This document shows, piece after piece, positions 8,137 through 57,383 of a DNA stretch of 64,000 nucleotides. A program made the translations under genes and the position numbers. Every line of letters starts with the position of its first letter. Within the stretch, counting starts at the first letter, position 1. A model generated the notes under the pieces. That model had not been told where the DNA came from. It did no database searches and was given only the letters and a program-made list of their open reading frames with translations. This stretch comes from Hymenobacter swuensis DY53 (lineage in GTDB: Bacteria; Bacteroidota; Bacteroidia; Cytophagales; Hymenobacteraceae). The stretch spans positions 3,928,501 through 3,992,500 of the forward strand of contig NZ_CP007145.1 of the NCBI RefSeq assembly GCF_000576555.1. The letters run 5' to 3'.

Positions 8137-8184
8137 AAGTCAGGAGTTGGAATGAAATGCCCATATCATTCCGGCTCCTGACTT
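8137..8184. repeat. Intergenic inverted repeat between two isomerase genes
   Basis: AAGTCAGGAGTTGGAATGA (left arm) pairs with TCATTCCGGCTCCTGACTT (right arm) almost without a loop; the two mismatched positions are adjacent (TT against CC). It begins 27 bases after a stop codon and has no T-run, so a simple terminator is a poor fit. It belongs to the inverted-repeat set discussed in the findings. Confidence 0.75.
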
Positions 8185-8383
8185 TTCACTTCTCTTGGCG
8201 GCGGCTCTGCAACCCATTGCGGCCGGCCTGACTCTCTGCTGCGAAGCGGGCACTTCCCGGAGTAATCTGTGGTTTTGCCGGAGAAAGGATTTATGATGAA
8301 ATTTACGGGCAGCTTTTGGCGTTTTGCCGGCTGTCTGGCTTCAGCAACGCCCTTGGCTTGTTGCAGCATTACGGAAAGATTCC

Positions 8384-9772
8384 ATGATTCAAGTATTGCG
8401 AGTACCGGCCCGTAAGCTACTGCTGAGCGCGGTGCTGCTGGCTGCTTCGGCCACTGCCAGCTACGCCCAGCTGGGCGTTGGCCGCCCGGTGGGGCAGAAA
8501 ATAGTAGACGGCATTATCGCTAAGGTGGATAACCAGATTGTGCTGCGCTCCGACCTGGAAACCATTTATGCCCAGGAAGTAGCCCGCGCCGAAGGCAAGC
8601 CGCTGCCGCCCGATACGCAGTGCCGCATTCTGCAGAGCCTAGCTCTTAACAAGCTGCTATTGGCCAAAGCCGAAACTGACTCCGTGGTGGTAGAGGACTC
8701 CCAGGTGAAAAGTGAGCTGGACCGCCGCATGGCCTATTTCGTGCAGCAGATTGGCTCCGAGAAAAAGCTGGAGGAATACTACAACAAGCCGCTGAAGCAA
8801 CTGAAGGAAGAGTTGCGCATTCAGGTGAAAGAGCAGCTGGTGCAGCAGAAAATGCAGGACCAGATTGCCGGCAAAGTGTCCGTTACGCCCCGGGAAGTCC
8901 GCCAGTTTTTCAACCGGATGCCCAAAGACAGCCTGCCCTATTACTCCACCGAAGTGGAAGTAGGCCAGATTGTGAAGGTGGCCAAAACCAACAACAAGGC
9001 CAAGCAGGAGTCCCAGGCCAAACTCAACGATATCCGGGCCCGCATTGTGGCCGGCGAGGATTTTGCCACGCTGGCCAAGCAGTATTCCCAGGACCCCGGC
9101 TCGGCCGTGGAAGGGGGTTACCTGGGCTTTTTCAAGCGCCGCGAACTGGTACCGGAGTATGAAGCCGCCGCGCTGCGGTTGGAGCCGGGCGGATTATCTC
9201 CCATCGTGGAGTCGCAGTTTGGCTTTCACCTGATTCAACTGATTGAGCGCAAAGGCGACTCCTACAGCACCCGGCACATTCTGCTCAAGCCCGAAACCGG
9301 CACAGCCGATACCAACGAGGCCTCTCAGGAACTCGCCAAATTGCGTCGTCGCATTCTATCTGATAGCGTAAGCTTTGCTAAAGCCGCCAAGGACAACTCC
9401 GACGACAAGCTTTCGGGCGGCAACGGGGGCCTGATGCAAAACCGTCGCGACGGTAGCACCTACCTCTCCCTTGACCAGCTCGACCCCGCCATCTTCTTTA
9501 CCATTGACACCATGAAGGTGGGGAGCGTAACGCCGCCCCTGCCCTACCGGACCGACGATGGCAAAGATGCCGTACGCATTCTGTACCTGAAGTCGAACAC
9601 CCCGCCTCACCAGGCCAACATCGACGACGATTACCAGAAAATTGCAGCAGCGGCCCTCAACGAGAAGAAAAACAAAGCACTCGACACTTGGTTTGCCCAG
9701 AACCGCGGCACCGTTTATCTGGAGGTTGACCCCGAGTACTCCGGCTGTCAGCTGCTGAACGCCGTGAATTAA
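8384..9772 (+). CDS. SurA-like periplasmic peptidylprolyl isomerase
   Basis: Outer-membrane-protein chaperone of the SurA type: an N-terminal helical SurA_N region (about residues 40-170) followed by two parvulin domains, about 190-290 (EVEVGQIVKV to GFHLIQLIE) and 292-400 (YSTRHILLKP onward). The ATG at 8384 is chosen because it opens a standard signal peptide ending in TASYAQLG; the open frame extends upstream to 8324 without signal-peptide character. The 462-residue length is typical of Bacteroidota SurA homologues. It lies 273 bases after the lipoprotein isomerase, with an inverted repeat between them, and is followed by a MoxR ATPase gene. Confidence 0.92.
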   Translation: MIQVLRVPARKLLLSAVLLAASATASYAQLGVGRPVGQKIVDGIIAKVDNQIVLRSDLETIYAQEVARAEGKPLPPDTQCRILQSLALNKLLLAKAETDSVVVEDSQVKSELDRRMAYFVQQIGSEKKLEEYYNKPLKQLKEELRIQVKEQLVQQKMQDQIAGKVSVTPREVRQFFNRMPKDSLPYYSTEVEVGQIVKVAKTNNKAKQESQAKLNDIRARIVAGEDFATLAKQYSQDPGSAVEGGYLGFFKRRELVPEYEAAALRLEPGGLSPIVESQFGFHLIQLIERKGDSYSTRHILLKPETGTADTNEASQELAKLRRRILSDSVSFAKAAKDNSDDKLSGGNGGLMQNRRDGSTYLSLDQLDPAIFFTIDTMKVGSVTPPLPYRTDDGKDAVRILYLKSNTPPHQANIDDDYQKIAAAALNEKKNKALDTWFAQNRGTVYLEVDPEYSGCQLLNAVN

Positions 9773-9781
9773 TGTAGTTGT

Positions 9782-9847
9782 TTTTAGTAGTTGGTTGGTG
9801 GTTTTTGGCCTGTTCAGTTGCCAAGTACTAACAACCAATTACTAAAA
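9782..9847. repeat. Heptamer-built inverted repeat before moxR-like gene
   Basis: Left arm 9782-9809 and right arm 9820-9847 match at 23 of 28 positions when one is reverse-complemented. The left arm reads as degenerate 7-base units (TTTAGTA, GTTGGTT, GGTGGTT). It fills most of the 90-base gap between the SurA-like gene and the MoxR start, which would place it in the 5' leader if the genes are cotranscribed. Confidence 0.75.
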
Positions 9848-9862
9848 GCCAAAACCCAACTT

Positions 9863-10825
9863 ATGCCTTTCGCCTCCGATAAAGAAGCCGCCGACGCGCT
9901 GGCCCGGTCCTACCAAAAGCTCCGCCAGGAAATCGGCAAAGTCATTATCGGGCAGGACGACGTGGTAGAGTTGGTGCTGACGGCCGTGTTTTCGCAGGGC
10001 CATTGCCTGTTGGTGGGCGTGCCAGGGCTAGCCAAAACCCTGCTCATTCAGACTATTGCCGACTCGCTGGACCTTTCGTTCAACCGGGTGCAGTTCACGC
10101 CGGATCTGATGCCGTCGGACATTGTCGGCTCGGAAACGCTAAACCAGCAGCGGGATTTTCACTTTGTACCAGGGCCGATTTTTGCCAACATTGTGCTGGC
10201 CGACGAAATCAACCGGACTCCTCCCAAAACCCAGGCGGCCCTACTCGAAAGCATGCAGGAATACGCCGTGACGGTGGCGGGTAAGCGGTATCCGTTGCAA
10301 CGCCCGTTCTTCGTGCTGGCTACCCAGAACCCGATTGAGCAGGAAGGCACCTATCCGCTGCCCGAAGCTCAGCTGGACCGCTTCATGTTTAATATTGAGC
10401 TGGGCTACCCAAGCTACGAGGCGGAGCTGCAAATCGTGAAAAACACCACGTCCGACCACAAGCCTACGGTTAGCAAAATCCTCCACGCCGACGACATTCA
10501 GGCGTTTCAGCAGCTGGTGCGCCGCGTGCCCGTAGCCGATAACGTGGTAGAATATGCCGTTGGTCTGGTACACAAAACCCGCCCCAATACCGACCGCGCC
10601 GCTGCCCGCGCCTCGCAGCTGCTGGAATGGGGAGCAGGGCCCCGCGCTTCGCAGCACCTCATTGTAGGGGCCAAATGCCACGCTCTCATTCACGGCAAAT
10701 ACTCGCCCGATATTGAGGATGTGAAAGCAGTAGCTCTGCCCATTCTGCGCCACCGTCTGGTGCGCAACTTCAAGGCCGAAGCCGAGGGCATCACCGTGGA
10801 CCAGATTGTAAAAGAACTCCTTTAG
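9863..10825 (+). CDS. MoxR family AAA+ ATPase
   Basis: A MoxR-type AAA+ ATPase, a family acting as chaperone-like remodeller of partner complexes. Residue order: helical N-terminus, Walker A GVPGLAKT (about 52-59), Walker B VLADEINRTPP, sensor region ATQNPIEQEGTYPLPEAQLDRF, and the AAA lid (SPDIEDVKAVALPILRHRL). The 320-residue length is normal. The ATG at 9863 follows the inverted repeat; the open frame upstream (from 9791) runs through that repeat and is not credible coding sequence. The usual partners (DUF58 and VWA/BatA-type genes) are not adjacent; the next gene is an uncharacterised 147-residue protein. Confidence 0.95.
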   Translation: MPFASDKEAADALARSYQKLRQEIGKVIIGQDDVVELVLTAVFSQGHCLLVGVPGLAKTLLIQTIADSLDLSFNRVQFTPDLMPSDIVGSETLNQQRDFHFVPGPIFANIVLADEINRTPPKTQAALLESMQEYAVTVAGKRYPLQRPFFVLATQNPIEQEGTYPLPEAQLDRFMFNIELGYPSYEAELQIVKNTTSDHKPTVSKILHADDIQAFQQLVRRVPVADNVVEYAVGLVHKTRPNTDRAAARASQLLEWGAGPRASQHLIVGAKCHALIHGKYSPDIEDVKAVALPILRHRLVRNFKAEAEGITVDQIVKELL

Positions 10826-10827
10826 AT

Positions 10828-10935
10828 AATGATGAATCCGGAATGATAAATCAGGAATTGGTAGACCGCCAACAAGCTGCTCTTAACCATATCTCCTTTT
10901 TGACTCATCATTCTTAATTCATAACTCATAATTCC
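10828..10935. repeat. Degenerate heptamer repeats in opposed orientation
   Basis: The left part reads as units of the form GAATNNN on the plus strand (TAATGAT, GAATCCG, GAATGAT, AAATCAG, GAATTGG). The right part (about 10900-10935) reads the same way on the minus strand (GAATTAT, GAGTTAT, GAATTAA, GAATGAT). The arms keep the 7-base rhythm but pair only partially. This fills the 118-base gap after the MoxR gene. Confidence 0.6.
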
Positions 10936-10943
10936 CTTCAAGC

Positions 10944-11387
10944 ATGGAAGCAGCCGGTTACTACCAGCAATTTGAGCGCAACCTGGAAATTATTATCAGT
11001 GGTCTGGAAGCTGGGCTCGATGTGCGCACTACCGCCCTCACTACCTCTTTGCCGCTTGAGGTGTATGTGCTGAGTGAAGTACTGAACCAGGGTGGCGGCC
11101 AGTTCCGCCTTACCACAGAAACACCTCTGGAGCGGCTGCGCGAGTTTCATGCCCAGTTTCGCCAGAACGAAGCCGGCAACGAAGCCCTGATGCAACGCAT
11201 CCTGGACGACAAAAAGGCACTGATGCGCACACCCGAAGGCCGCGTGCTTACCAAGGAAATGTTGATTCGCCGCCTGGAATACTTTAATGAGGCCGCCCGC
11301 CAGGTAAACGTAATGCGCAACCAGCATGCTCTCGGCAGTCCACCGCAGGCCCGTTCCGGCATCGGGGCAGAACTGCAGAAAGGCTAA
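10944..11387 (+). CDS. Uncharacterised 147-residue protein
   Basis: I do not recognise a named domain. The protein is soluble, without signal peptide or membrane segment. It starts MEAAGYYQQFERNLEI and is rich in helical, charged stretches (LERLREFHAQFRQNEAGNEALMQRILDDK is split by a likely turn). A region near the end (GRVLTKEMLIRRLEYFNEAARQ) looks like a pair of amphipathic helices. It lies downstream of the MoxR gene on the same strand with repeat-filled spacing of 118 bases and could be cotranscribed. Codon use looks like that of its neighbours, so it is probably a real lineage-specific gene. Confidence 0.75.
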   Translation: MEAAGYYQQFERNLEIIISGLEAGLDVRTTALTTSLPLEVYVLSEVLNQGGGQFRLTTETPLERLREFHAQFRQNEAGNEALMQRILDDKKALMRTPEGRVLTKEMLIRRLEYFNEAARQVNVMRNQHALGSPPQARSGIGAELQKG

Positions 11388-11391
11388 GCCC

Positions 11392-11578
11392 GGGTTGGGC
11401 CGGATTCATCGGATTTCGTGGATGATTTGCTGTTAGATAAACTCCATATAAGTCCTCCGGATTTAGAAAACAGAAAGGCTTGCCACATTGGCAAGCCTTT
11501 CTGTTTGGGTTTATCGGATTGTAAACCGGTTCGTTGTAGTCATCCATAATATCCGACGACTCCGGCCCAACCAAGGCT
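11392..11578. repeat. Large nested inverted repeat with terminator core
   Basis: Outer arms: GGTTGGGCCGGATTCATCGG near 11394 pairs with CCGACGACTCCGGCCCAACC ending near 11574, with two mismatches. The inner core at 11468-11506 is a perfect hairpin of 17-base arms (AAACAGAAAGGCTTGCC) and a 5-base loop, ending in TTT. It separates a plus-strand gene from a convergent minus-strand SDR gene and likely terminates both. Confidence 0.8.
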
Positions 11579-11592
11579 TAGCCTTTCTACGG

Positions 11593-12477
11593 CTACGACA
11601 TAGAAGCTGCAGCTTCTTCGCGCACTTTGGTATTGCCTTCCTTGCTGTGTTGCAGGTTGAGGCTGCCGGTGGGCTCCTGCTTCAGATGACTGGGAACCTC
11701 GTCACCGGCTGCGCTCTTGGAGATAGTGACGCCACCATCTACAAAGTATGTGGCCCCGGTAACGTAGCTGGCTTCCTCGGAGGCCAGGAACAGGTACACG
11801 TTGGCTACTTCTTCAGGCGTACCCCGGCGACCCAGCGGTACACCGGCCACCGTATTCTTTTCCATTTTCTGGTTCATCGGTCCGGTTTCCTTGTGCGTCC
11901 AGGCCGTATCAATAGGCCCTGGGCCGACGCAATTCACCCGGACACCGTGCTTGGCTTGCTCCACCGCTAAGCCCTTGCTGAAGGTCATCACCCAGGCTTT
12001 GGTGCCGCCGTAGGGCGTAATCATGGGGGAACCCATCTGCCCGGCTTCCGAACCCGCCGATACTATGTTGCCCTTTGTCTTTTGTAGCTCTGGCAACGCT
12101 GCTCGGCTCATCATGAACACCGAGTAGATGTTGTTTTTGATCATGTACTCAAAAGCATCCACCGGATACTGGTCCAGTTCGGCGGTGGCCGGGAATACAC
12201 CCGCATTGTTAACGAGGATATCGAGTTTGCCGAATTCCTGCACGGCTGCTTTTACGCAGGCTTCCGCTACCTCCTGGGCCGAAATGTCGCCGAGGTAACC
12301 GATGGCGCGGCCCCCTTCGGCCAGAATTTCATCCACGACTTCCCGCACCGGGTCCGATTCGAGCCCGACAACGACGACTGCAGCCCCTTCACGGGCAAAC
12401 TTCTTGCTGATTGCTTCGCCGATACCCGAGCCACCGCCCGTTACTATTACTACTTTATTGGTGAGTCTGCCTGACAT
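11593..12477 (-). CDS. SDR family oxidoreductase
   Basis: A classical NAD(P)-dependent short-chain dehydrogenase, related in layout to glucose 1-dehydrogenase/3-oxoacyl reductase-like enzymes. Cofactor motif TGGGSGIGEA near the N-terminus, NNAG in the middle, catalytic YGGTK with an upstream Ser (IVSAGSEAGQ), and the family C-terminal YVTGATYFVDGG. The chosen ATG at 12477 (MSGRLTNKVVIVTGG) gives 294 residues; the longer open frame to 12579 lacks SDR character. A hydrophilic tail of some 35 residues follows the domain. Substrate unknown. It is transcribed divergently from an acetyltransferase gene. Confidence 0.93.
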   Translation of the reverse strand: MSGRLTNKVVIVTGGGSGIGEAISKKFAREGAAVVVVGLESDPVREVVDEILAEGGRAIGYLGDISAQEVAEACVKAAVQEFGKLDILVNNAGVFPATAELDQYPVDAFEYMIKNNIYSVFMMSRAALPELQKTKGNIVSAGSEAGQMGSPMITPYGGTKAWVMTFSKGLAVEQAKHGVRVNCVGPGPIDTAWTHKETGPMNQKMEKNTVAGVPLGRRGTPEEVANVYLFLASEEASYVTGATYFVDGGVTISKSAAGDEVPSHLKQEPTGSLNLQHSKEGNTKVREEAAASMS

Positions 12478-12674
12478 GTTGAAAGGATTAAAAAGGAACA
12501 ATACGCCTCCGGACGGGAGTAGCTCCCGAAAATTCATCCGGTAATGAGGCGTGCGTATACCCTTCTGAACGACTGCCATGTGCCGAAGTTTCTACCGCCG
12601 AGCTTTAGCTTGCCGTCGTGTAGGCCGGTTTTGCGTCTTTCTCTGTAGTATCACCCGGTTACCTACCCCAAATC

Positions 12675-13250
12675 ATGTACGCCGTTCCGCCCCTGCCAGC
12701 TCCTGCCGGCACGCCTATTCGGGCGGCTAGGCTTACGCTGCGCCCCTACCTGCCTTCCGACACGACCGATTTCTTCCGGCTTATCGATGAAAACCGAACC
12801 CGGCTACGGCCGTCGTTTCCGGCCCGCGAAGCGGCCGTGCAAAGCCCTGCTGCCGCTTCGCAAACCCTCACCCGGTTCCGGCACGACTGGACTACCGGCC
12901 GGCTGTACGTCTTCGGTATCTGGCATCAGGAAACCCAGCAGTACCTTGGCGACATCAGTCTAAAGCCTAACTGGACTCCGCCCATCACCCTTGAAATCGG
13001 CTATTACCTCGCAGCCGATGCGGAAGGGAAAGGATACGCGCGCGAGGCATTAGCGGCCATTGCCACTTTTGGCTTTGAGGTACTGCACGCTGAACGGCTC
13101 CTGATTCGTTGCAAAGCAACGAATCCCCGTAGCTGCGCCGTAGCCGAAGCCGTGGGCTTCCGGCCCCTGCCACCCCGGCCGCGCCCCTGGCCTCTGCGCG
13201 TCTTCGGTAGCTCCGATATTCTCTATTATTGCCTGCGACGGCCGGCCTGA
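12675..13250 (+). CDS. GNAT family N-acetyltransferase (RimJ/RimL-like)
   Basis: A 191-residue GNAT acetyltransferase, the family that moves an acetyl group from acetyl-CoA to an amine. The N-terminal strand GTPIRAARLTLRPYLPSD is typical of the RimJ/RimL branch. The acetyl-CoA-binding region is EIGYYLAADAEGKGYAREAL (motif A, with the Q/RxxGxG/A-like turn as AEGKGYA), followed by AERLLIRCKATNPRSCAVAEAVGF (motif B). The branch includes ribosomal-protein alanine acetyltransferases and many enzymes acting on small molecules, so the substrate is open. It stands alone, convergent with the barrel gene at 13271. Confidence 0.9.
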   Translation: MYAVPPLPAPAGTPIRAARLTLRPYLPSDTTDFFRLIDENRTRLRPSFPAREAAVQSPAAASQTLTRFRHDWTTGRLYVFGIWHQETQQYLGDISLKPNWTPPITLEIGYYLAADAEGKGYAREALAAIATFGFEVLHAERLLIRCKATNPRSCAVAEAVGFRPLPPRPRPWPLRVFGSSDILYYCLRRPA

Positions 13251-13270
13251 AACACCCTGAAAAGCGCCTC

Positions 13271-14434
13271 CTAATTGCCTTTTATGGTCCCCAGCAGGAA
13301 GCTCTGGTTGAAATTCAGATACAACGCGAAGGAGAAATCGAACAGACCATTATTGAGGTCGTAGAGCGGCTCGAAGCGCGTAGTAAGGATAAGATTGCCG
13401 GGTAGCCGGTAGTCCTTAATGGCCCGCAGAATTAGCAGCTGCCGCTGCTTTTCGGTGTAGCCCGGGTCGGCCACCGAAACGGAAACCGACTGGTACAGCC
13501 GCCCCCCGATGGGCGAGATATACCCGCTGCCCTGCCAATACGCCAGCTGCAGATTAGACAGGCGGGTATCGAGGCCGACGTTGAGGTAGAGCCCGGTCCC
13601 GCGCTTGTAGGGCAACGCGTAGGTGAAGGAGTAGTCGTGGAAGTAAGTTACGTAGCCATCAAAATGCGCCGCCTGCACGAAACGTGAGGCCAGTGCCTTA
13701 CGCATCCGCAGGCCGGTAGCCACGTTGAACAACGTCTGCAGCGGTTTATCAATAGTATCCAGCTGCCCACCAACGTGGGTAGCCGTGAACTGAAACGGCA
13801 GCTTCAGTAGCCAGCCCGTGGAGTCGCCCAAAAGGCGGCGCTCCACGCTCAGGCCGCCGGCCACTTCCTCCTGGTAGTTGCTGAAGCGGTACTGCTGCCG
13901 CCGCCAGTTCACCCAGGCATCCAGAAACGTATTATCTGTCAGGTATTGATACTGCACGCCTTCTTCCAGTCGGTCGTATAGTACCCGCTCAAAGTCATAC
14001 ATCGGCTCGATGTAGCCGTGCTGCAGGTTACCTTCAATGTTGCCGAACAGCAGCCGGTGTGGCCCCTGCGCGTACTTGAGTGTGAACAAGGGCCGCACCT
14101 GCCGCAGCCGCTGCGTGCCGTAGTCCTTCTGCAGAAAAATGCCGGCCTCCAGCCGCAGGTTAGCTGCCGGGAAATACACCAGCCGCGGGGCCAGCTGCGC
14201 CCCAAAGTAGGTCAGGCCGGGGTCAATTTTGTTGAAATACTCGTTGTCTTTATTGTAGAGCAGCCCCTGCACTTCCAGCCGCACCTGCCGCTCATAGCTC
14301 GGGCCCAGCGGCAGGCGGTTAAAGAAAGCCCGGTTATCCAGTTGCGCCTGCGCGGCTCCCGTCAGGGCCAGCCACGCTACCAGCGTCAGTATCAGAACCC
14401 TAGAAGCCCGGTTTGATTCCAAAAAATTTAGCAC
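13271..14434 (-). CDS. Exported protein, probable outer-membrane beta-barrel
   Basis: 387 residues beginning at a GTG (MLNFLESNRASRVLILT...), with a clear signal peptide ending TGAAQAQ. The rest alternates polar and hydrophobic residues in many short strands rich in Tyr, Phe and Arg (for example LLFGNIEGNLQHGY, AWVNWRRQQYRF, LTTRFEPLYDL), typical of an outer-membrane barrel. It ends in a Phe-containing strand (FALYLNFNQSFLLGTIKGN). I do not recognise a named family. It is divergent from recA and convergent with the GNAT gene. Confidence 0.8.
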   Translation of the reverse strand: MLNFLESNRASRVLILTLVAWLALTGAAQAQLDNRAFFNRLPLGPSYERQVRLEVQGLLYNKDNEYFNKIDPGLTYFGAQLAPRLVYFPAANLRLEAGIFLQKDYGTQRLRQVRPLFTLKYAQGPHRLLFGNIEGNLQHGYIEPMYDFERVLYDRLEEGVQYQYLTDNTFLDAWVNWRRQQYRFSNYQEEVAGGLSVERRLLGDSTGWLLKLPFQFTATHVGGQLDTIDKPLQTLFNVATGLRMRKALASRFVQAAHFDGYVTYFHDYSFTYALPYKRGTGLYLNVGLDTRLSNLQLAYWQGSGYISPIGGRLYQSVSVSVADPGYTEKQRQLLILRAIKDYRLPGNLILTTRFEPLYDLNNGLFDFSFALYLNFNQSFLLGTIKGN

Positions 14435-14628
14435 AGAAAAAACATCCTGAATTCAACGAATTTTTTTAGCATTGCGGGCACAAAATATAGTCCGGCGGCG
14501 TTACCATGAGCCGCCCCTGACCGGCCCCGTTTCTACTGCTTCCTGCGCTCGGGCAAGTGGTTGTTCCGGCCGGCTAAAAGGCCTACATTCACCAAACCTA
14601 AGCATTTCCAAACAACCCCTTTATACTA

Positions 14629-15738
14629 ATGGCAGCAACCACTGAAAAGGCTGAGAAAGCGGAAAAAACCGCCTCTAACCCCCAGGCCGAGAAACTCAAA
14701 GCCCTTCAGCTTACCCTCGATAAGCTAGATAAGAGCTACGGCAAAGGTACCGTGATGAAGCTCAGCGACAACAAGGTGATGGACATTGAAGTCATCAGCA
14801 CCGGCTCGTTAGGGCTGGATATTGCGCTGGGTGTGGGTGGTCTGCCTAAGGGCCGCGTAGTGGAAATCTACGGCCCGGAATCGTCGGGTAAAACGACCCT
14901 CACGATGCACTGCATTGCTGAGGCGCAGAAAAAGGGGGGTATTGCCGCCTTCATTGATGCCGAGCACGCCTTCGATCCGCTGTACGCCAAGAAACTCGGT
15001 ATCGACACAGCCAACCTGCTCATCGCCCAGCCCGACAATGGCGAGCAGGCGCTGGAAATTGCCGACCAGCTGATTTCCTCCGGCGCCATCGACATCATTG
15101 TGATTGACTCCGTAGCCGCTCTGGTACCGAAAGGCGAGTTGGAAGGCGACATGGGCGACTCGAAAGTGGGTCTGCATGCCCGCCTCATGAGCCAGGCCCT
15201 GCGGAAGCTCACCGGCACCATCAATAAAACCGGCTGCTGCTGCATCTTTATCAACCAGCTGCGCGAGAAAATCGGGGTGATGTTCGGTTCACCCGAAACC
15301 ACTACCGGTGGTAACGCCCTGAAATTCTACGCTTCGGTTCGCCTGGATATCCGCCGCATTGGCCAGATCAAGGAGGACAAAGACAATATCACCGGTAACC
15401 GCACTAAGGTGAAGGTGGTGAAGAACAAGGTAGCACCGCCTTTCAAAGTCATTGAATTCGACATCCTGTATGGCGAAGGCATTTCCAAAGTGGGTGAAAT
15501 TCTGGACTTGGGCGTGGACATGGGCATCATTGCCAAATCGGGCTCCTGGTTCTCTTACGAAGGCAACCGCCTGGGTCAGGGCCGCGAAGGCGTGAAAACC
15601 GTCCTGCTCGACAACCCGGAGCTGGCTGATAAAATCGAAGCCCAGATTCGGGCTAAGGTGAAAGGTGCCCCCGAGGAAGCCTTGGCTGCTATTCCCGAGG
15701 ACCACACCACCGACGAAGACGAGGACGACGACCTGTAA
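14629..15738 (+). CDS. recA: Recombinase RecA
   Basis: The DNA strand-exchange ATPase and SOS coprotease. 369 residues, a normal length. Walker [10 protein letters not shown] (residues 82-90), Walker [15 protein letters not shown], loop L1 region [22 protein letters not shown], loop L2 [13 protein letters not shown] preceded by [13 protein letters not shown]. It ends in the expected acidic tail ([10 protein letters not shown]). The N-terminus has an extra Ala/Lys/Glu-rich stretch ([15 protein letters not shown]) common in this phylum. A weak TAGCATTG box (one mismatch to TAnnTTTG) lies at 14467. A strong terminator follows. Confidence 0.99.
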
Positions 15739-15762
15739 GCTTTGCACAAGCTCTTGGAGTGA

Positions 15763-15797
15763 AAAAAGCCCTGCCGGACAACCGGCAGGGTTTTCTT
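15763..15797 (+). terminator. Terminator after recA
   Basis: CCCTGCCGG and CCGGCAGGG form a stem with a 4-base loop, preceded by a run of A and followed by TTTTCTTTT. Confidence 0.9.
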
Positions 15798-15898
15798 TTG
15801 CGTATGGCTCACGCTCGATGCCTTCCGGTTTTTCACACGATGCGTAACTGGTCGATACCGGTTTTAGTATCGGATTCTACCGCGTTTGACAGCTGCTT

Positions 15899-15928
15899 TT
15901 TGGCTCTGTCAGAATCCGAGTATCTTTG
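15899..15928 (+). promoter_or_regulatory. Bacteroidota-type promoter for DUF3108 gene
   Basis: TTTG at 15899-15902, an 18-base spacer, then TATCTTTG at 15921-15928: both elements of the TTTG/TAnnTTTG consensus with ideal spacing, about 50 bases before the start codon. Confidence 0.75.
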
Positions 15929-15980
15929 CTGGCACCGCATTTGAGAAGGTCCCGGCTACACTCTACTTTGCCGCTTGTCC

Positions 15981-16811
15981 ATGAACCGCCGCTGGCTTCT
16001 GTTTTCTGTGCTGACCCTGCCGCTGGCTGCGGCACTCACAGCGTTTGGCCCGGCCTCCGAGGCCACCCGCACCGTCTCCAATCAAAGTTTTGACCGAGGC
16101 GAAACCTTGCAATATAAGGTGCATTATGGCCTCATCAACGCGGCAGAGGCCACTATTGAGGTCGACGATGCCGTGCATCGAGTGAATGAGCGGCCCTGCT
16201 ACAAGGCCACCGTTACGGGCCGTACCACGGGCTCCTTCGACTTCTTCCTGCGCATCCGCGACACCTGGCGCTCTTACATCGATACCACCAGCATTCTACC
16301 GCAACGGTTCTTCCGCAACATTGAGGAGAACAACTACCGCAAGCGCGAAACTGTGGACTTTGATCATGCTCGCGACGTAGCCGATGTGGAAAGCCACAAG
16401 CGCGATAAAAACAACGTCAAGAAGGGCACGTTCAAAATCCCGAATAACGTGCAGGACATTGTCAGCGGCTTTTATTTCCTGCGCACCCTGAATTATGACC
16501 AGCGCAAGGTGGGGGAAGTAATCAAGGTGCAGGGTTTCTTCGACGAAGACGTGTTTAACATGGATGTGGTGTATAAGGGCCGCGAAGTGGTGGAAACTAA
16601 GGCCGGCACCATTCGCACCATCCGGCTGGTGCCTAAAATGCCCAGCAACAAGATCTTTAAGGGAGAAAATGCCGTTTCGGTGTATCTCTCCGACGACCGG
16701 AATAAGGTTCCGGTCCTGATTCAGGCCGAAATGTTTGTAGGGGCCGTGAAGGTCGACCTCTACAAATACAAAGGCCTCCGAAACCGGCTAAATCTGGTGG
16801 CGCAAAAATGA
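15981..16811 (+). CDS. DUF3108 domain exported protein
   Basis: 276 residues from the ATG at 15981; a TTG two codons earlier is less likely. A signal peptide (MNRRWLLFSVLTLPLAAALTAFG) is followed by a DUF3108 domain covering almost the whole mature protein: FDRGETLQYKVHYGLINAAEATIEV, then DTWRSYIDTTSILPQRF and the C-terminal VPVLIQAEMFVGAVKVDLYKY. The family is found in the periplasm of Gram-negative bacteria and has no assigned activity. It has its own TTTG/TATCTTTG promoter and a terminator at 16821, so it is a single-gene unit. Confidence 0.9.
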   Translation: MNRRWLLFSVLTLPLAAALTAFGPASEATRTVSNQSFDRGETLQYKVHYGLINAAEATIEVDDAVHRVNERPCYKATVTGRTTGSFDFFLRIRDTWRSYIDTTSILPQRFFRNIEENNYRKRETVDFDHARDVADVESHKRDKNNVKKGTFKIPNNVQDIVSGFYFLRTLNYDQRKVGEVIKVQGFFDEDVFNMDVVYKGREVVETKAGTIRTIRLVPKMPSNKIFKGENAVSVYLSDDRNKVPVLIQAEMFVGAVKVDLYKYKGLRNRLNLVAQK

Positions 16812-16820
16812 TTCTGTGTG

Positions 16821-16856
16821 AAGCGGCTTCCGTTGGGGGCCGCTTTTCTTTTTTTC
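16821..16856 (+). terminator. Terminator after DUF3108 gene
   Basis: AAGCGGC (16821-16827) pairs with GCCGCTT (16839-16845), followed by a T-rich tract TTCTTTTTTT. Confidence 0.8.
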
Positions 16857-17094
16857 CATACCTGTTCATCCCCCGCTCCTTGTCTGATGCCGACTACCCT
16901 CGCCACCCGCCGCCGCATGGTTCTGCAACCCAGCCGTGTGGCAGTGCAGGCCCCAGTGAAAGCCCCACCGGCCGTAGCTGATTTTGTGTGGCCCATTCCC
17001 AACCCCGCTCCCCGGAAGGAGTCGGCTCCCGGCCGAATCCGGCTACCGGCAGCGGGTAACGAAAACGTAACACGCCGCGCGCGCCGGCCGGCGG

Positions 17095-17102
17095 TACTTT
17101 TG
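17095..17102 (+). promoter_or_regulatory. Probable -7 element of response-regulator gene
   Basis: TACTTTTG matches TAnnTTTG and lies 39 bases before the GTG at 17142, which supports that start over longer versions. Confidence 0.55.
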
Positions 17103-17141
17103 TCCTCGCGCATTCTCTTTTACCCTAAACCTCCCCGTTCC

Positions 17142-17843
17142 GTGCAACCAACCGCCAACCCCAACGCCTACAAGATTCTGGTAGTGGACGACGACCCCGA
17201 CATCGTGGAGCTGCTGGAGTACAACCTGCGCAAGGAAGGCTACGAGGTAGCCAGCGCCCCCGACGGCCGTAAAGCCCTCGAAGTTGCGCCTCTGTTCGGG
17301 CCGGATATTATCCTGCTCGACGTGATGATGCCCAACCTTGATGGGATTGCCGCCTGCCGCCAGCTGCGTGAGCAACCCAAGTTCAAGGATACATACATCA
17401 TCTTCCTGACGGCACGGGCTGAGGAATTCTCGGAAGTAGCCGCCTTCGACGCCGGGGCCGACGACTTCATTGCCAAGCCCATCAAGCCCCGGGCCTTGCT
17501 CAGCCGCTTGGCTGCCTTCGTGCGCCGCGACAAAGACCCGCAACAGGTGTCGGATACCATTGAAATCAACGGCCTCAAGATTGACCGTACCGGCTTTGCC
17601 GTGTATCAGGAGGGCCGCAAAATCTCGCTGCCCAAAAAAGAGTTTGAGCTGCTGGCCTTCCTGGCCGCCTCGCCCCATAAAGTATTCGGCCGCGACGAGT
17701 TACTGCAGAACATCTGGGGCAACGACGTATTTGTGCTGGCCCGCACCGTAGACGTACACATCCGCAAAGTGCGCGAAAAAGTAGGTGACCACCACATCCA
17801 GACCATTAAAGGCGTCGGCTACAAGTTCAATACCGACAACTAA
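17142..17843 (+). CDS. OmpR/PhoB-family response regulator
   Basis: A two-component transcription factor. The receiver domain (about residues 12-125) shows the acidic pocket VVDDDPD, phospho-acceptor Asp60 in ILLDVMMP, Thr in FLTARA and Lys in FIAKPIKP. The winged-helix OmpR domain follows (KISLPKKEFELLAFLA, then VDVHIRKVREKVGDHHIQTIKGVGYKF). The GTG at 17142 (VQPTANPNAYKILVV) is preferred: a promoter-like TACTTTTG and a terminator lie inside the longer open frame. Length 233 residues fits PhoB/PhoP relatives. The cognate kinase gene follows 108 bases later, across a large hairpin. The nearest functional guess is PhoB, not proven. Confidence 0.93.
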   Translation: MQPTANPNAYKILVVDDDPDIVELLEYNLRKEGYEVASAPDGRKALEVAPLFGPDIILLDVMMPNLDGIAACRQLREQPKFKDTYIIFLTARAEEFSEVAAFDAGADDFIAKPIKPRALLSRLAAFVRRDKDPQQVSDTIEINGLKIDRTGFAVYQEGRKISLPKKEFELLAFLAASPHKVFGRDELLQNIWGNDVFVLARTVDVHIRKVREKVGDHHIQTIKGVGYKFNTDN

Positions 17844-17845
17844 GT

Positions 17846-17940
17846 GAAGTGGTGAGATGGTGAAATGGTGAGTTGCTGTTCTATCCGCACAAGTGGTGCT
17901 TGCAGAACAGCAACTCACCATTTCACCATCTCACCACTTC
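17846..17940. repeat. Perfect 37-bp-arm inverted repeat between RR and HK genes
   Basis: Arms 17846-17882 and 17904-17940 are exact reverse complements around a 21-base loop, which itself holds a GCAC/GTGC pair. The left arm is four degenerate 8-base units (GTGAAGTG, GTGAGATG, GTGAAATG, GTGAGTTG, counted from 17844). It fills nearly all the space between the two genes of one two-component system. Confidence 0.95.
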
Positions 17941-17951
17941 TTCATTTCCTT

Positions 17952-19074: not shown

Positions 19075-19080
19075 TTTCCC

Positions 19081-19838: not shown

Positions 19839-19900
19839 AGGTAAGTCCCAACGGAAAGGGCGACGCCATATGGCGTCGCCCTTTCCGTTGGGACTTACCT
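19839..19900. terminator. 62-bp perfect palindrome shared by convergent genes
   Basis: Positions 19839-19900 form one loop-free perfect palindrome centred between 19869 and 19870 (core GGCGACGCCATATGGCGTCG). It is followed by a T-run on the plus strand. On the minus strand it contains the stop codon and last Arg codon of the gene ending at 19895, so it can act as terminator for the plus-strand gene and overlaps the coding end of the other. Confidence 0.95.
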
Positions 19901-23183: not shown

Positions 23184-23197
23184 TCTTGAAGCAGCTG

Positions 23198-23336
23198 GAA
23201 GCTAGGAGCTAGGAGTTAGAATCTGTGATGTCGGCCACTCGCCCATTCAGTTCTGACTTTTAGCTCCTAGCTTCTTTCTGTACTGCTTCCCTCCTCTCAT
23301 TTCATTCTAACTACTAGCTTTTCGCTACTAACTCCC
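23198..23336. repeat. Heptamer inverted repeats between rpsB and tsf
   Basis: Arms 23198-23221 and 23251-23274 pair at 21 of 24 positions. The left arm reads as GAAGCTA GGAGCTA GGAGTTA, i.e. 7-base units with AGYTA. A further stretch at 23303-23336 carries similar units on the minus strand (AAGCTAG TAGTTAG), so more than one pairing is possible. This occupies the whole gap between two cotranscribed translation genes. Confidence 0.85.
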
Positions 23337-32620: not shown

Positions 32621-32640
32621 CGTGTAGCTTTCCTTTTTCA

Positions 32641-32724
32641 CGCAGTGGCGCGCGGTGGTTGGCGCAGTGGTTTGCAGTGAACGACCACCCCGAACCACTG
32701 CGTATCCCACTGCGAACCACTGCG
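32641..32724. repeat. Inverted repeat with 10/12/10-base unit spacing
   Basis: Both arms are built from CGCAGTGG units. On the left strand they start at 32641, 32651, 32663 and 32673 (spacing 10, 12, 10); the reverse complement of the right arm has the same 10, 12, 10 spacing. About 39 bases pair with several mismatches around a short loop. It is 13 bases before the ATG of the M28 peptidase gene, so it falls in or just ahead of its leader. Confidence 0.85.
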
Positions 32725-32737
32725 AGAAATCAACTAT

Positions 32738-37052: not shown

Positions 37053-37060
37053 GTTTTATA

Positions 37061-37161
37061 GAAGCTGCAGGCAGTAAGCGGCAAGTCAAAAGCTCCGGAC
37101 GGCAAGGAATCAACCCCTGCTATCCGGAGCTTTTGACTTGCCGCCTGAAGCTTGCAGCTTC
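37061..37161. repeat. 39-bp-arm inverted repeat reaching a stop codon
   Basis: Arms 37061-37099 and 37123-37161 pair at 34 of 39 positions; the inner 22 bases (core GGCAAGTCAAAAGCTCCGGA) are exact. The left arm divides into 7-base units (GAAGCTG, CAGGCAG, TAAGCGG, CAAGTCA, AAAGCTC). The right arm ends on the first base of the minus-strand stop codon at 37161-37163. It lies between convergent genes and may end both transcripts. Confidence 0.92.
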
Positions 37162-39287
37162 TATTTTAGCACGGCTTCCGTGACTTTGTTGATGTCGCTG
37201 CTTACTTTTTGGATGAACTCCAGCTGCTCCCCCAGCTGCGCGTCGGGCAGATGCGTGGGAGCGGGCACGGGAAGGTCAGTAGGCATGCTTTCGGGCTCCT
37301 GCGGATCAAGGCGGTGCAAGCTGCGGTGTAGCGACTGTTGCGCGTGGCGCAGGCTCTTGAGGCCGGCAGCGGGCAGGGCCGGCCGGGTTTCGCCATTGAG
37401 CAAAGAGGTAGTAATGGAGGCCACGTTGGACGACAGGATGTGGTTGAGCACCACAAATTCGTGTACCTCCGTGGGCCGGTGCTGCTTGCCCCGGGGCTCC
37501 GACATCATACGCTGAAAGGCCGCGCCCAGGTTAGCCGACGATACGTACACTTCCTTGCGGGCCAGCTTATAATCAACCAGGGCCACCGGGGAGCCAATCA
37601 GGACCTCCTGCAAGGTGCGCAGGTATTGTAGATTGGCCCGCAGCACAGCCTTCAGATAATCCTGCAACTGGTCGGATTCCCACCTTGGAAACAGCACATA
37701 GCCCACGGTGAAGGCAATGAAGCACCCCAATACGGTATCAAACACCCGCTCCTCCACCACCTGTACATAACCCAGCCCCAGAAAGCTAAACAGGATGAGA
37801 ATAAAGGGCGTCATGAACGTGACGGTGACCAGATAATTGATGCGCACAAAGCTGTACGACACCACCATAAACACCACCATCAGGGCCAGCAGCACCATTC
37901 GGTCGGGAATGATCCATAGGATGCAGGCCCCCAGCACGCCGCCTGCTAGCGTGCCCAGTACGCGCTGTACGTTGCGCTGTTTGGTGAGGCTGAAGGCCGG
38001 TTTGAGCATGTAGGTAATCGTCATGAGCACCCAGTAGCTGTGGTGGCCGGGCAGCACTTTGGTAATCAGAAACCCGATCAGACAGGCTACCAGCATGCGT
38101 ACGGAATGACGGAAAACGCCTGAGTGCAGCGTCAGATGGTCGCGCAGCTGCTTAAAGTCGAAGCTCTGGTGGGCCACGAACCGGCCAAACTCCAGCTCCC
38201 GCCCCGAGGCAGCCGGCGCGTTGGCGTCGAAATAAGCCAGAATATCCTGGAGGCGCAGCACGAGGTTGCGCAGGTTCACCAGAATCTTCTTGAGCATGAG
38301 CGTATGGCCGGGCCGCGTAGGGTCTTCCAGCGCATCAATGCGGGTTTTTATGCGGTCCAGACCGGCCAGCAGGTCGCGGCGGGCGGTGTAGCCGTGGTTG
38401 GCCTGAATGGCGAAGCCGATGCTTTCCAGCTCAGCCGCCAGCTCTTCTATTTCACTCGCCACGGCATCGAGAATCCCGGTAGGCTCGAAGCGGCGGTGCA
38501 GATCGGCGTAGTCGTAGTAGGTGATGGTAATCTGCTCGTAGAGGTCTACCAGATCCACGAACGTGAGTACCAGCCGTCGCCCCGTACCGGTGGATTCCTT
38601 GATGAGCTGGCGGGTTTTGAACAGAATTTCGCGCACGGCATCCTGCTTCTCACTCACGGTTACCTGCTGGGCCACCAAGCGGCGGTAATCGGCCTCCAGG
38701 TTGGTGCCGGTGCGGTAGAACTCGGCCTTGAGGCGCAGAAAATCCGCCACGGATCGGATGGCGTCGCCAAGGGCCTGCTGGGCCACGCGATAGGGCCGCA
38801 GTTGGTTGAGCAGCCCCGCAATACCGGCATACCAGAGGCCACCCATCACCACCAAGCCGGCGTGAGGCAGCACTTCAGCCGGGGCCAGTGGTCGGTCCAG
38901 CATCAAAATCATGATCAGCAAACCGGCGGTACCCACCGCGCCGGCCCGGTTACCATAGGCCAGCAGCAAGGTAAAAATGAAGCTCACACTCACCACCATC
39001 AGCCCCAGCAGCCACGGATACGGCCCCAGAAAGCCGGTCAGTAGGGCCATTAGGCCCGTCAGGACGGTAGCGGCCAGCATGCCGTTGCGCTTGTGCGCGG
39101 GCGGTCCGGGTATATCGGTCAGGCTCACGCACACCGCCCCGAGCGACATGGTGAGGCCGGTGTTCAGGTCGCCGTGCCAGCCCAAAACCAGCCCCGGCAA
39201 CAAAATGGACAGCGTGGTGCGCACGCCATCAGAGAATTCCTGGCCGGAGAAGAAGTAGCGAAGGGAGCGGAAATTGAAACCAGACAT
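37161..39287 (-). CDS. FUSC-family (YccS-like) membrane transporter
   Basis: 708 residues with two membrane blocks separated by a cytoplasmic part, the layout of FUSC/YccS aromatic-acid-exporter-like proteins. First block residues about 20-170 (DGVRTTLSILLPGLVLGWHGDL to LLIMILMLD), then a helical cytoplasmic region of about 230 residues, then the second block (VRMLVACLIGFLITKVLPGHHSYWVLMTI), where HSYWVLMT is the FUSC hallmark, and a soluble C-terminus. Substrate unknown. ATG start at 39287. Its coding end touches a long inverted repeat. It has no partner membrane-fusion protein gene here. Confidence 0.92.
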   Translation of the reverse strand: MSGFNFRSLRYFFSGQEFSDGVRTTLSILLPGLVLGWHGDLNTGLTMSLGAVCVSLTDIPGPPAHKRNGMLAATVLTGLMALLTGFLGPYPWLLGLMVVSVSFIFTLLLAYGNRAGAVGTAGLLIMILMLDRPLAPAEVLPHAGLVVMGGLWYAGIAGLLNQLRPYRVAQQALGDAIRSVADFLRLKAEFYRTGTNLEADYRRLVAQQVTVSEKQDAVREILFKTRQLIKESTGTGRRLVLTFVDLVDLYEQITITYYDYADLHRRFEPTGILDAVASEIEELAAELESIGFAIQANHGYTARRDLLAGLDRIKTRIDALEDPTRPGHTLMLKKILVNLRNLVLRLQDILAYFDANAPAASGRELEFGRFVAHQSFDFKQLRDHLTLHSGVFRHSVRMLVACLIGFLITKVLPGHHSYWVLMTITYMLKPAFSLTKQRNVQRVLGTLAGGVLGACILWIIPDRMVLLALMVVFMVVSYSFVRINYLVTVTFMTPFILILFSFLGLGYVQVVEERVFDTVLGCFIAFTVGYVLFPRWESDQLQDYLKAVLRANLQYLRTLQEVLIGSPVALVDYKLARKEVYVSSANLGAAFQRMMSEPRGKQHRPTEVHEFVVLNHILSSNVASITTSLLNGETRPALPAAGLKSLRHAQQSLHRSLHRLDPQEPESMPTDLPVPAPTHLPDAQLGEQLEFIQKVSSDINKVTEAVLK

Positions 39288-56300: not shown

Positions 56301-56609
56301 GTATGGCTGGGCATCGTGCATGTGCAACGCAATGGCCCGGCGGCTGGCTTCGGCGGCTTCTTTGTACTGCTTGTTCTGCAGATAAGAAAGGGCCAGCTCG
56401 CCCTGAATCCCTACGTAGCCGGAATCGGAGGAAGGTACCAGCAGATACTGCCGGATGGCCCCGGCAAAGTCGCCTTTATCATGCAGTGCAATGCCCTCCT
56501 GCAAAGCCCGGGAGGCGGTGGGTACGGTAGCCGGCTGCTGTTGGCCGTACGCCGTGGCGGCAGCTCCGGCCCACAGGCTCAGGAGCGTACCGTACGTAAA
56601 AACTCGCAT
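53301..56609 (-). CDS. 1,102-residue TPR plus MORN-repeat protein
   Basis: Signal peptide (MRVFTYGTLLSLWAGAAATAYGQ), then TPR-like helical repeats over residues 30-230 (GDFAGAIRQYLLVPSSDSGY, ALASWQRSLELAPMHPGTHY). A helical middle follows at about 230-370. From about residue 385 to the end, about two dozen MORN-type repeats of about 23 residues occur (typical unit G-W-x-Y-Y-x-x-G-x-L-x-x-x-G-x-Y). These MORN variants are often labelled YwqK-type, but no toxin partner is present. First of the three-gene operon; its stop overlaps the next start. Probably a periplasmic or surface protein scaffold. Confidence 0.9.
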   Translation of the reverse strand: MRVFTYGTLLSLWAGAAATAYGQQQPATVPTASRALQEGIALHDKGDFAGAIRQYLLVPSSDSGYVGIQGELALSYLQNKQYKEAAEASRRAIALHMHDAQPYYVLAEAEENLKHESEAFRAYTDGLKLMPYNQLLWFNQGVSYDALKKRPAALASWQRSLELAPMHPGTHYQLAWLALEQGQTARALISLLTFLAIQPDSENSQQALILAENIAANTQEVEEKEREKPFVPNDAFQDLDLLLTSKVALRKDYTTKVKFDANIVKQAQLLIEKFPAGGSSETDLWLRAYGPMVEALRRDDNLTAFTYLILYSADDKRASQWVKSNKSKVERMSQAVSQALLSLRVQQPVSGQPEGTRRTAWFHEKKIQGIGEGTTKDGDLESLRGPWLFLDKAGAVSKEGSFTADSKRTGRWREYHDNGQLAKDMNYDAQGLLEGRYAEYHDNGALSVDGTYQAGKLVGTAKLYHYCGEAREARKYENGDATGEALFYYPTGKLQRRANYRADKLEGPSAHFYPDGTPEATYTYVADKRQGAFEVFYPDKQLERKGAYEQGELHGDYKDYFPNGQLASAGRYDHGKQVGRWQTFYASGKPSDEKTFDPATGELHGTLKDYDKDGRLLSELEYVQGRVTKLTYFDAAGKPISQTAIAKKGRTEVKGVRPDGVTRFTGAYTDGRMSGEWRWFRRNGSLATVRNYLNGKQQGAEEFYASNGRVSQRNQYQDDQLDGFSQTYYPHGQLQRAGYYTAGEQQGTWKQYYPTGQLSEEYNLQSGTMHGQTRSYTPGGKLTQERWLEYDRPLTITSFDSVGAVVDRLVVQPTTKAFTMHYPNGKPRVESGWLCYDYQGSEKWLFPNGKTEVTSEMDQGNRQGAYRSYHPFTGKLVEEGTYRDGKREGEWKYYYASGTLRSRGTYQRGESEGEWSSYFENGQLEKVSTYAADDLNGPLRIYNMQGELLLEKLYADGELLGFRSPGPDGKATGDLKPVGTISTTFTNGKPAATETYQKGTLSGSRTYYYSTGQVYRRAQNSPDGQLTGTLTTYYPNGKVQEEEAYAFDELHGRSRYYRPDGTLEREETFRCGEKAGPTVYYDAQGKPLRTDFYWNTHVYETR

Positions 56610-56729
56610 TAACGTAAACTATATAAAACACCTCATCGGCCCTGCCGCCCTTGCGGTGGCCCGCTGATAGTTCCACAAGTATACCTGTTTTGCGTGGCTT
56701 GAAAAAGGCCCGCCAGCGTTTCGGCCGGC

Positions 56730-57296
56730 CTATTTTTTCGGTTTCGACCGGGGTTCTTTCCGGGTAGGGGCGGGAGCAGTTGCACCGGGCGCGGCCGGGT
56801 ACACGGCCAGCTCCTTGTACCCGAACGTGGTATCTGTTTCCCGCCGAAAGTCCAACTCCGGCAGTTCACCAATTACCAGCTCGGCGGTGGTGTAAATCAG
56901 ATTCCCATCCAGCAGATGCCCGCCGATGGTGCGCCCCGTGGAGTCAGCTACCGACAGGTGCAGGTGACTCCCTTCCACCGACAGTGTTCCTACCAGCGAC
57001 ACGATTTCGAAGTGGCCGTGGTATACCGTGGGGCCCTCCTGATTGGCCAGCCGTAGCGTAGTGGTGGTCAGGCTGCCTACGCCCGTCAGCACGCAGGCCG
57101 CCCGCAGTTGATGTCGGGTTACAAACGCCAGCAGTTTCTGCCGCAAATCCTGACCGGGCCGGAGGCGCAGGGCGTACGTACGGAGCGACGAAGAGGCAAC
57201 GGCAGAGGCAGCAGACATAGCAACAGGAGCAGTTTGGGCAACGGCAGCCGGGGAAACACCCAGGCCCAGTAGCCCGATCAGTAGAAAACCACGCAT
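56730..57296 (-). CDS. Exported PPC/DUF296-domain protein
   Basis: 188 residues from the ATG at 57296. It has a signal peptide (MRGFLLIGLLGLGVSPAAVAQ). The PPC (DUF296) domain covers residues 40-155: YALRLRPGQDLRQKLLAFV, AACVLTGVGSLTTTTLRLA, and the two His motifs GSHLHLSVADSTG and GGHLLDGN that bind metal in other members. PPC proteins in plants carry AT-hooks and act in the nucleus. Here there is no DNA-binding motif and the protein is exported, so another role (metal or ligand binding) is likely. It lies at the end of the sigma-factor cluster, separated by an inverted repeat. Confidence 0.88.
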   Translation of the reverse strand: MRGFLLIGLLGLGVSPAAVAQTAPVAMSAASAVASSSLRTYALRLRPGQDLRQKLLAFVTRHQLRAACVLTGVGSLTTTTLRLANQEGPTVYHGHFEIVSLVGTLSVEGSHLHLSVADSTGRTIGGHLLDGNLIYTTAELVIGELPELDFRRETDTTFGYKELAVYPAAPGATAPAPTRKEPRSKPKK

Positions 57297-57308
57297 AGAG
57301 AAAGGCAA

Positions 57309-57383
57309 AAGCAGAAGGTCAAAAGTAAGCGCGGCACCACGTTTTACCGGAGCAGCCGCGCTTTTACTTTTGACCTTCTGCTT
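57309..57383. repeat. Heptamer inverted repeat before the PPC gene
   Basis: Left arm 57309-57335 and right arm 57355-57383 pair nearly perfectly, with two extra bases (AA) in the right arm. Core GCAGAAGGTCAAAAGTA. On the minus strand the right arm reads as AAGCAGA AGGTCAA AAGTAAA. It fills the gap between two minus-strand genes. Confidence 0.85.

Follow-up and report, generated by a model that had tools for sequence, protein, structure and literature searches.

The stretch analysed here, hereafter the window, comprises 64,000 nucleotides (nt) of Hymenobacter swuensis DY53 (contig NZ_CP007145.1, positions 3,928,501 to 3,992,500 of the forward strand), in a genome of 5.25 Mb in four contigs. 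Its intergenic gaps hold long inverted repeats, and the genes adjoining them encode SurA/PpiC-like isomerases, a PhoB-like response regulator together with its kinase, and a TonB-dependent receptor. An earlier interpretation made from the letters of the window, which we call the sequence-only reading, had claimed inverted repeats at ten places, and all ten are present; their arms, put at about 17-39 bases, measure 17-50 nt. Eight of the ten lie in gaps between codirectional genes, and two (11392 and 37058) lie in convergent gaps. No Rfam family reached its gathering score anywhere in the window, and the window contains no tRNA genes. Our subject is a class of these repeats whose arms run in a seven- or eight-base rhythm (heptads or octads) and which lie as hairpins at the 3' ends of genes, here and elsewhere in the genome.

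The repeats far exceed what base composition would produce. When nine of the stretches were folded and compared with 200 dinucleotide shuffles, eight were far more stable (z −5.1 to −14.8), while the ninth, 10826-10943, was weak (z −2.2, with 7 of 200 shuffles equally good). In a 464-kb sample made up of the window and 20 spread stretches of the same genome, 318 gaps of at least 40 nt held 94 repeats with a score of at least 15, each of three first-order resamples held none, and one of 97 repeats lay inside a gene. The sequence-only reading had staked its claim on a comparison with shuffled gaps; the two counts, 94 and 0, are not equal, and a chance origin is ruled out. All gene calls come from a simple codon-score script.

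The repeats do not form the single family that had been proposed. Three kinds are mixed among the listed places, namely terminators, palindromes resembling repetitive extragenic palindromic (REP) elements, and the rhythmic class, and we rejected one family for all of them on that ground. The classes rest on script rules, in which a motif list defines a REP and a lag-7 or lag-8 z of at least 2 defines the rhythmic class. Across 864 kb (735 genes, 587 gaps), 213 gap repeats scored at least 14, of which 55 carry REP-like motifs and the others are terminators and the rhythmic class. The autocorrelation check suggested by the sequence-only reading, made on samples of six species (2,039 kb; 409 repeats with arms of at least 18, 93 of them REPs and 316 others), bears out the existence, across the genome, of inverted repeats whose arms have a period of 7 or 8 bases. 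Peaks of z >2.5 occurred in the 316 non-REP arms at lag 7 in 26 cases (4.0 in resampled sequence), at lag 8 in 18 (7.0 resampled) and at lag 14 in 16 (2.0 resampled), with counts at the other lags from 3 to 13 equal to or under those resampled; the 93 REP-like elements had no peak at lag 7 or 8. In this six-species analysis, the remaining non-REP repeats are simply what is left over.

Typical words of the rhythmic class are AAGTNAA, GAAGTGA, GGAGCTA, CAGTTGC, AATTAAG, AATGTGA, GGGACTT and the octad GTGANNTN. Unlinked gaps share words, since 39 pairs of 118 elements have a common 11-mer, as against 13-21 in five resamples. The DY53 genome yielded 30 rhythmic repeats at the stricter and 40 at the looser repeat threshold, and the 40 found in 1.05 Mb extrapolate to an estimated genome total of about 200. 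Heptad left arms (the purine arm on the gene-sense strand, in this genome and five relatives) also contain stop codons at 8.75 per 100 nt versus 6.85, and 28 of 90 have stops in all three frames versus 14.6 by resampling, an enrichment that treats repeated units as independent and is suggestive only.

Members of the rhythmic class are placed behind genes, as terminators are. Of 119 convergent gaps 11 contain one, as do 18 of 447 codirectional gaps and 1 of 130 divergent gaps. In the DY53 genome, 24 of 27 codirectional cases start between −15 and +25 nt from the upstream stop codon, and 10 of 12 convergent cases lie within 15 nt of the stop at both of their sides. They span a median 0.78 of codirectional and 0.94 of convergent gaps, compared with 0.30 and 0.54 for the remaining non-REP repeats. 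In most of them the purine-rich arm comes first (convergent gaps 16:1, codirectional gaps 36:17), and in this order they resemble the remaining non-REP repeats (64:25 and 88:31) and not the REPs (11:6 and 26:33). Their 3' tails are 30% T, 30% C and 11% G, with 34% T in the remaining class.

Intrinsic bidirectional terminators have a GC-rich apex and a T-run. They share place, purine-first layout and hairpin form with the rhythmic class and probably differ from it by that apex and the T-run, and also by their shorter length. A rhythmic element and a canonical terminator (defined by a short loop, a GC-rich apex and an A or T tract) occurred together in none of 696 gaps at the thresholds used; a sub-threshold ordinary terminator can share a gap with an element, as at 32636. 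A terminator scan of positions 8000-27999, which allowed loops of 3-8 only, recovered none of the listed rhythmic hairpins. The sequence-only reading had set the repeats apart from ordinary terminators, a separation that sits poorly with a class that occupies terminator positions, replaces terminators at some orthologous gaps and, at the thresholds used, does not stand in one gap with a canonical one.

The repeats at one and the same gap differ between species, a kind of variation that the sequence-only reading had asked for between strains. We compared the regulator-kinase gap in 33 species, those of 35 distinct best-match species in which both gene ends could be placed. An inverted repeat with a score of at least 11 is present in 28 of them (eight REP-like) and absent from five. 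These repeats fall into six or more kinds, among them differently spelt octads, AAATGTG and AATTAAAAATTAA heptads, and hairpins rich in GC. The closest species, G054, has a median amino-acid identity of 96.0% over 223 orthologues, and a 1.5-kb query against 120 genomes of the genus found no closer relative. In 155 gaps paired with G054, repeats are present in both species in 22, only here in 16, only there in 12 and in neither in 105. The convergent gap C3:3861587 holds different long hairpins in the relatives G012 and G053, and the convergent gap C3:4075699 holds a heptad hairpin here and GC-rich terminators in G054, G012 and G053. This replacement by another spelling at the same gap suggests that shape rather than sequence is conserved.

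The presence of a repeat (score of at least 14) also clusters by gap. Across 58 codirectional gaps in four species, none of 2000 permutations reached the observed variance; 35 gaps have no repeat (expected 24) and 7 have repeats in three or four species (expected 1.6), and the clustering holds for the 32 gaps of at least 112 nt (p 0.0045). A first persistence count found some hairpin in 20 of 31 codirectional cases with the class in a relative and in 78 of 364 elsewhere (p 1e-6), a contrast that is largely an artefact because gaps too short for a hairpin were counted; we abandoned this strong figure, which was lost on matching for gap length. Some hairpin tends to recur at given gaps, and the gaps of the rhythmic class are weakly special in this respect.

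The two arms of a repeat change together. In 29 repeats homologous between DY53 and G054, differences affect 67 stem pairs. In 48 of these one base differs and in 19 both do; Watson-Crick pairing is kept by 18 of the latter, while partners slid by 1-3 positions keep it in 0-1 of 4-9. C3:3861587 is the clearest case: among its 42 paired positions, four differ in mirrored fashion, three of these by transversion, and one more, at the end, differs on one side. Mirrored changes of this kind fit copying of one arm onto the other, which may have occurred by template switching. The proposed origin by copying and then inversion is to this extent upheld, in that the arms change together beyond the slid controls; the half of the claim that divided them from terminators is not.

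The sites in the window are listed in the table below. Seven-base units had been claimed at most of them, and a lag of 7 is found at 9782, 19031, 23198 and 37058 and a lag of 14 at 10828 and 57301, with neither 8137, where a 7-base period is not significant in base shuffles of the arm, nor 11392 following the pattern. The eight-base unit claimed at 17846 is confirmed, and of the 10/12-base unit claimed at 32641 the lag of 10 was recovered.

Table. Inverted repeats of the window, in window positions. Period p values are from base shuffles of each arm and are uncorrected for picking the best of about 10 lags.
Position	Feature	Period	Setting and sequence
8137..8184	hairpin		26 nt past a stop codon; purine-first arms; related hairpin in the same gap of sister species G054
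9782..9847	heptad hairpin	lag 7 p 0.024	fills the gap; TAGTTGG/TGGTTGG words
10826..10943	weak heptad hairpin	lag 14 p<0.0005, lag 7 p 0.07	
11377..11588	imperfect 49-nt outer inverted repeat	lag 10 p 0.0015	convergent gap; CGGATTTCGTGGAT-like words
17846..17940	octad hairpin	lag 8 p<0.0005	perfect 37-nt arms of GTGANNTN units, 21-nt loop
19031..19074	AAGTNAA heptad hairpin	lag 7 p 0.007	begins at the stop codon of the kinase gene
19839..19900	perfect palindromic bidirectional terminator, outside the heptad class		
23193..23333	GAAGCTA/GGAGCTA heptad hairpin	lag 7 p<0.0005	second right-arm copy at 23304-23333
32636..32729	inverted repeat with 10-base units	lag 10 p 0.001	GCAGTGGTT words
37058..37164	hairpin with 50-nt arms	lag 7 p 0.049, lag 14 p 0.021	convergent gap, stop to stop; AAGCTGC and AAGTCAA words
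57301..57391	AAGTNAA/AAGGTCA heptad hairpin	lag 14 p 0.016, lag 7 p 0.09	downstream of a minus-strand gene

Several of these sites are composite or differ in relatives. The octad hairpin lies between the genes of the response regulator and the histidine kinase, and the right arm of the hairpin that follows the kinase gene continues into T-rich heptads. An ordinary bidirectional terminator (11468-11506) is nested inside the outer repeat of the convergent gap at 11377, and the gap of the ten-base repeat at 32636 also holds an ordinary terminator, upstream of the repeat; G054 has that terminator without the repeat. The gap of 9782 holds other hairpins in G012, G055 and G053, and that of 10826 has a REP in G002 and inverted words of other spelling in G054 and G012. 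Relative to G054, the hairpin at 57301 has one mirrored and two one-sided pair changes, and G055 and G053 have plain terminators in its place. The repeats at 19839, 28340 and 60954 are also strong and have the appearance of canonical terminators; the one at 19839 shares its core GGGCGACGC with G054, and its outer arms differ (six mirrored and five one-sided changes) and are nearly perfect in both species. G054 matches the gap 23183-23343 (C3:3951684) letter for letter, hairpin and second right arm included, against an average identity of 0.62-0.76 for paired gaps.

The octads of 17846 form a unit family with copies scattered through the genome, in agreement with the sequence-only reading. A 101-nt query from this site matches 89 stretches, with at least 12 other places matching at least 80 query bases (E<0.001), a lower bound given that 40 of 61 candidate places were scored. 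Copies vary in unit spelling and number. Most have arms that are nearly or fully complementary, and an inner stem (for example GTGAGTTTGACGTTC) and a loop rich in GC recur. The best fit of an arm, over any other copy, is its own partner arm in 12 of 20 octad-like copies, which include at least two heptad elements carrying GTGA. The pattern GTGANNTGGTGANNTGGTGA occurs at 25 places in this genome and 80 in G225 of the same genus, and is present in 14 of 296 sampled genomes of the phylum; its reversed control matches once. G225 also contains an array of alternating GTGAGATG/GTGAGGTG units at C1:932717-932784, and the octad hairpins C3:4086447 and C3:3911317 look decayed or shortened in one of the two genomes, DY53 or G054.

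Mobility driven by a transposase was not borne out. The Y1 transposase profile PF01797 has no match in this genome at E <= 0.001 (5 of 14 control genomes match), this being the one transposase family searched for. All three octad gaps of a 264-kb comparison are shared with G054, none being new; mobilisation by a resident Y1 transposase was rejected on the result for PF01797. REP-like palindromes (GTCATTCCGAGC..., GTAGCGCG..., AGACGCGA...) are abundant in the genome (L009, L010, L013, L025 and others) despite the lack of a PF01797 match.

Beyond the genus, the AAGTNAA array AAGTNAAAAGTNAAAAGTNAAAAG occurs in at least 114 stretches of species genomes, and 80 listed loci come from Cyanobacteria, Bacteroidota, Patescibacteria, Planctomycetes, Bacillota, proteobacteria and others. 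Among the matches listed, inverted repeats hold 18 of 115 clusters (114 loci), all 18 purine-first, and 14 of 81 clusters in the 80 loci; two of the inverted cases stem from one metagenome-assembled genome. In the same 80 loci, 49 clusters lie between two open reading frames, 29 of them with a left gene in the same sense, and 18 of these 29 are no more than 20 nt past its stop. Cyanobacterial short tandemly repeated repetitive (STRR) sequences are intergenic heptamer repeats, and the likeness to them that had been drawn holds in part: the AAGTNAA word is found in several phyla, Cyanobacteria among them, and in some cases is inverted as it is here, and tandem degenerate seven-base gap units are a feature of the class here, if not of every site. 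It does not extend to the direct arrangement, as our class was collected as inverted repeats.

In the P6b stem-loop of the cyanobacterial tRNA-Leu(UAA) group I intron (trnL), the stem is built of pairing TDNGATT or NNTGAGT heptads, and in the Nostoc trnL intron these two unrelated seven-base motifs serve the same stem, one replacing the other, with a unit number that varies, sometimes on both sides (PMC4476775). That is one stem in one intron, whereas here there are many intergenic 3'-end hairpins with many words in Bacteroidota, and neither an intron family nor a tRNA accompanies them in the window. Intergenic TAACTGA repeats are described from Beggiatoaceae, Cyanobacteria and five Bacteroidetes (PMC4679880), and GGGAATC and GGGGA(T/C)T repeats from Xanthomonas and Nostoc (PMC4692102). 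Like the repeats here, these are degenerate seven-base units in gaps, often near start or stop codons, and a CAGTTGC...TAACTGA-type element is also present in the DY53 genome (L021:4099). They are mainly direct, with one inverted set in BOGUAY (PMC4679880) and a mention of inverted ones in Xanthomonas (PMC4692102), whereas the arrays here make up both sides of a hairpin. REP elements of the GTAG and CGTC types are intergenic palindromes found mostly behind genes, in codirectional and convergent gaps (PMC3733652), and our 55 REP-like repeats resemble these two types. REPs are like the rhythmic class in placement and differ by a fixed tag and sequence and by the absence of a lag 7 or 8 peak here; the GTAG/CGTC tag is missing from the rhythmic class by construction, repeats with REP motifs having been set aside first. 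Template switching is reported to maintain RNA hairpins, reverse-complement copying creating or mending stems in multi-base steps (PMC8794818), and the arms of inverted repeats are homogenised in yeast (PMC8604942). Those studies rest on reconstruction on trees, and ours on mirrored differences between two species. In PMC13289151, on cyanobacterial termination, none of six terms for repeats and hairpins occurs. Among the papers listed by our searches of open-licence PMC literature, we saw none describing hairpins with heptad arms as a genome-wide class in Bacteroidota; heptad stems are already known from Cyanobacteria, and their genome-wide occurrence here appears to be new.

To account for the established position, rhythm, between-species replacement and mirrored changes of the rhythmic class, we tentatively propose, with a rough probability of 0.43, that it consists of gene 3'-end hairpins that are interchangeable with terminators and are respelt by unit slippage and arm copying. 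A heptad or octad hairpin would begin at or just past the stop codon, often filling the gap to the next stop or start, and would act as an intrinsic terminator or as a hairpin protecting the 3' end. The order of purine-rich arm, loop and pyrimidine-rich arm is the same on both strands, which would let the hairpin work in either direction. Termination or 3'-end protection is the most likely role, with moderate support from sequence data. The hairpin at a given gap would persist while its letters are replaced. As mutational routes we infer slippage of the 7-8 base tandem units, which would alter unit number and spelling, and intrastrand template switching, which would keep the stem paired because the changes of one arm are copied into the other. 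A wider version of this proposal, which we consider unlikely, is that several phyla share a sequence-independent, purine-first 3'-end hairpin with 7-8 base arrays, its letters rewritten by slippage and template switching, with heptad or octad stems, REPs and GC-rich terminators exchangeable at one gap. Since neither 7 nor 8 has a common factor with 3, stop codons in the purine arm would then fall in several reading frames.

A number of results weigh against the proposal of interchangeable, respelt 3'-end hairpins. Many examples lack a T-run and lie between probably cotranscribed genes, such as the pair at 17846, and there may simply be too little space for a terminator beside the rhythmic class. 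If pairing in the transcript were under selection, G-U mismatches should exceed A-C mismatches in codirectional gaps; the ratio in the rhythmic class is 81:70 (p 0.42), as against 147:98 (p 0.002) in the remaining non-REP repeats. An RNA role is unproven by this test because the rhythmic class has no significant G-U excess, and RNA-level selection as the sole keeper of the arms was rejected when a ratio of 60:37 in a smaller, earlier sample fell to 81:70 in the larger one. Persistence of a hairpin, once matched for length in the four species, is 19 of 30 versus 76 of 188 for gaps of at least 40 nt (p 0.03), versus 73 of 168 at 60 nt (p 0.05) and versus 65 of 132 at 80 nt (p 0.22), and convergent gaps have no excess (8 of 11 versus 30 of 32 at 40 nt or more). 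Shared descent also adds to the clustering of repeats by gap. One-sided changes exceed mirrored ones, 48 to 18, and no template switch has been polarised on a tree, since G012 and G053, the outgroups, carry other hairpins at the gaps examined. Finally, local slippage does not account for the dispersal of the octads, for which a further route is needed.

That dispersal favours reading the repeats as passengers, that is, as dispersed palindromes resembling REPs or miniature inverted-repeat transposable elements that enter gaps by insertion or copying and survive mainly just behind stop codons, where they do least harm, the rhythm being a feature of the element itself. The many octad copies with their recurring inner stem and loop, the 11-mers shared between elements beyond resampling, the concentration of the octad pattern in the genus, the REP-like families in the same genome and gap types, and the weakness of length-matched persistence all point this way. 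We nevertheless hold it to be rather unlikely: one element is insufficient for the different words found in the same gap across species, the genome has no match to the one transposase profile searched, PF01797, and the three octad gaps compared are shared with the closest species. Ordinary terminators or attenuators under plain RNA-pairing selection, with an incidental rhythm, would explain the common place and purine-first layout, the GC-rich terminators that substitute at some gaps, and the mirrored changes, which are a classical sign of selected RNA stems. They would not explain a rhythm far over resampling at lags 7, 8 and 14, stems that cover most of the gap, or the lack of a significant G-U excess, and the three mirrored transversions in the convergent gap C3:3861587 are hard to reach via G-U steps on both strands; this reading is improbable. 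More doubtful still is that the repeats are selfish or neutral slippage products like cyanobacterial STRR sequences, functionless and inverted by chance template switches. Periods of 7 and 8, degenerate units and the AAGTNAA array in many phyla are as expected of such products, as is the lack, at the threshold used, of an inverted partner in 97 of 115 AAGTNAA-array clusters among the matches listed, but the near absence from divergent gaps, the start at the stop codon and the clustering of presence by gap, to which shared descent contributes, are not.

The repeats of Hymenobacter provide a natural set of hairpins that occupy the same place and are respelt, in one genus and at many gaps. They make it testable how paired stems arise and stay paired, whether by template switching or by single-step selection, and whether transcription ends without a classical T-run. 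Accounts of heptamer repeats now scattered over Cyanobacteria, Beggiatoaceae and Bacteroidota could also be brought together through them.

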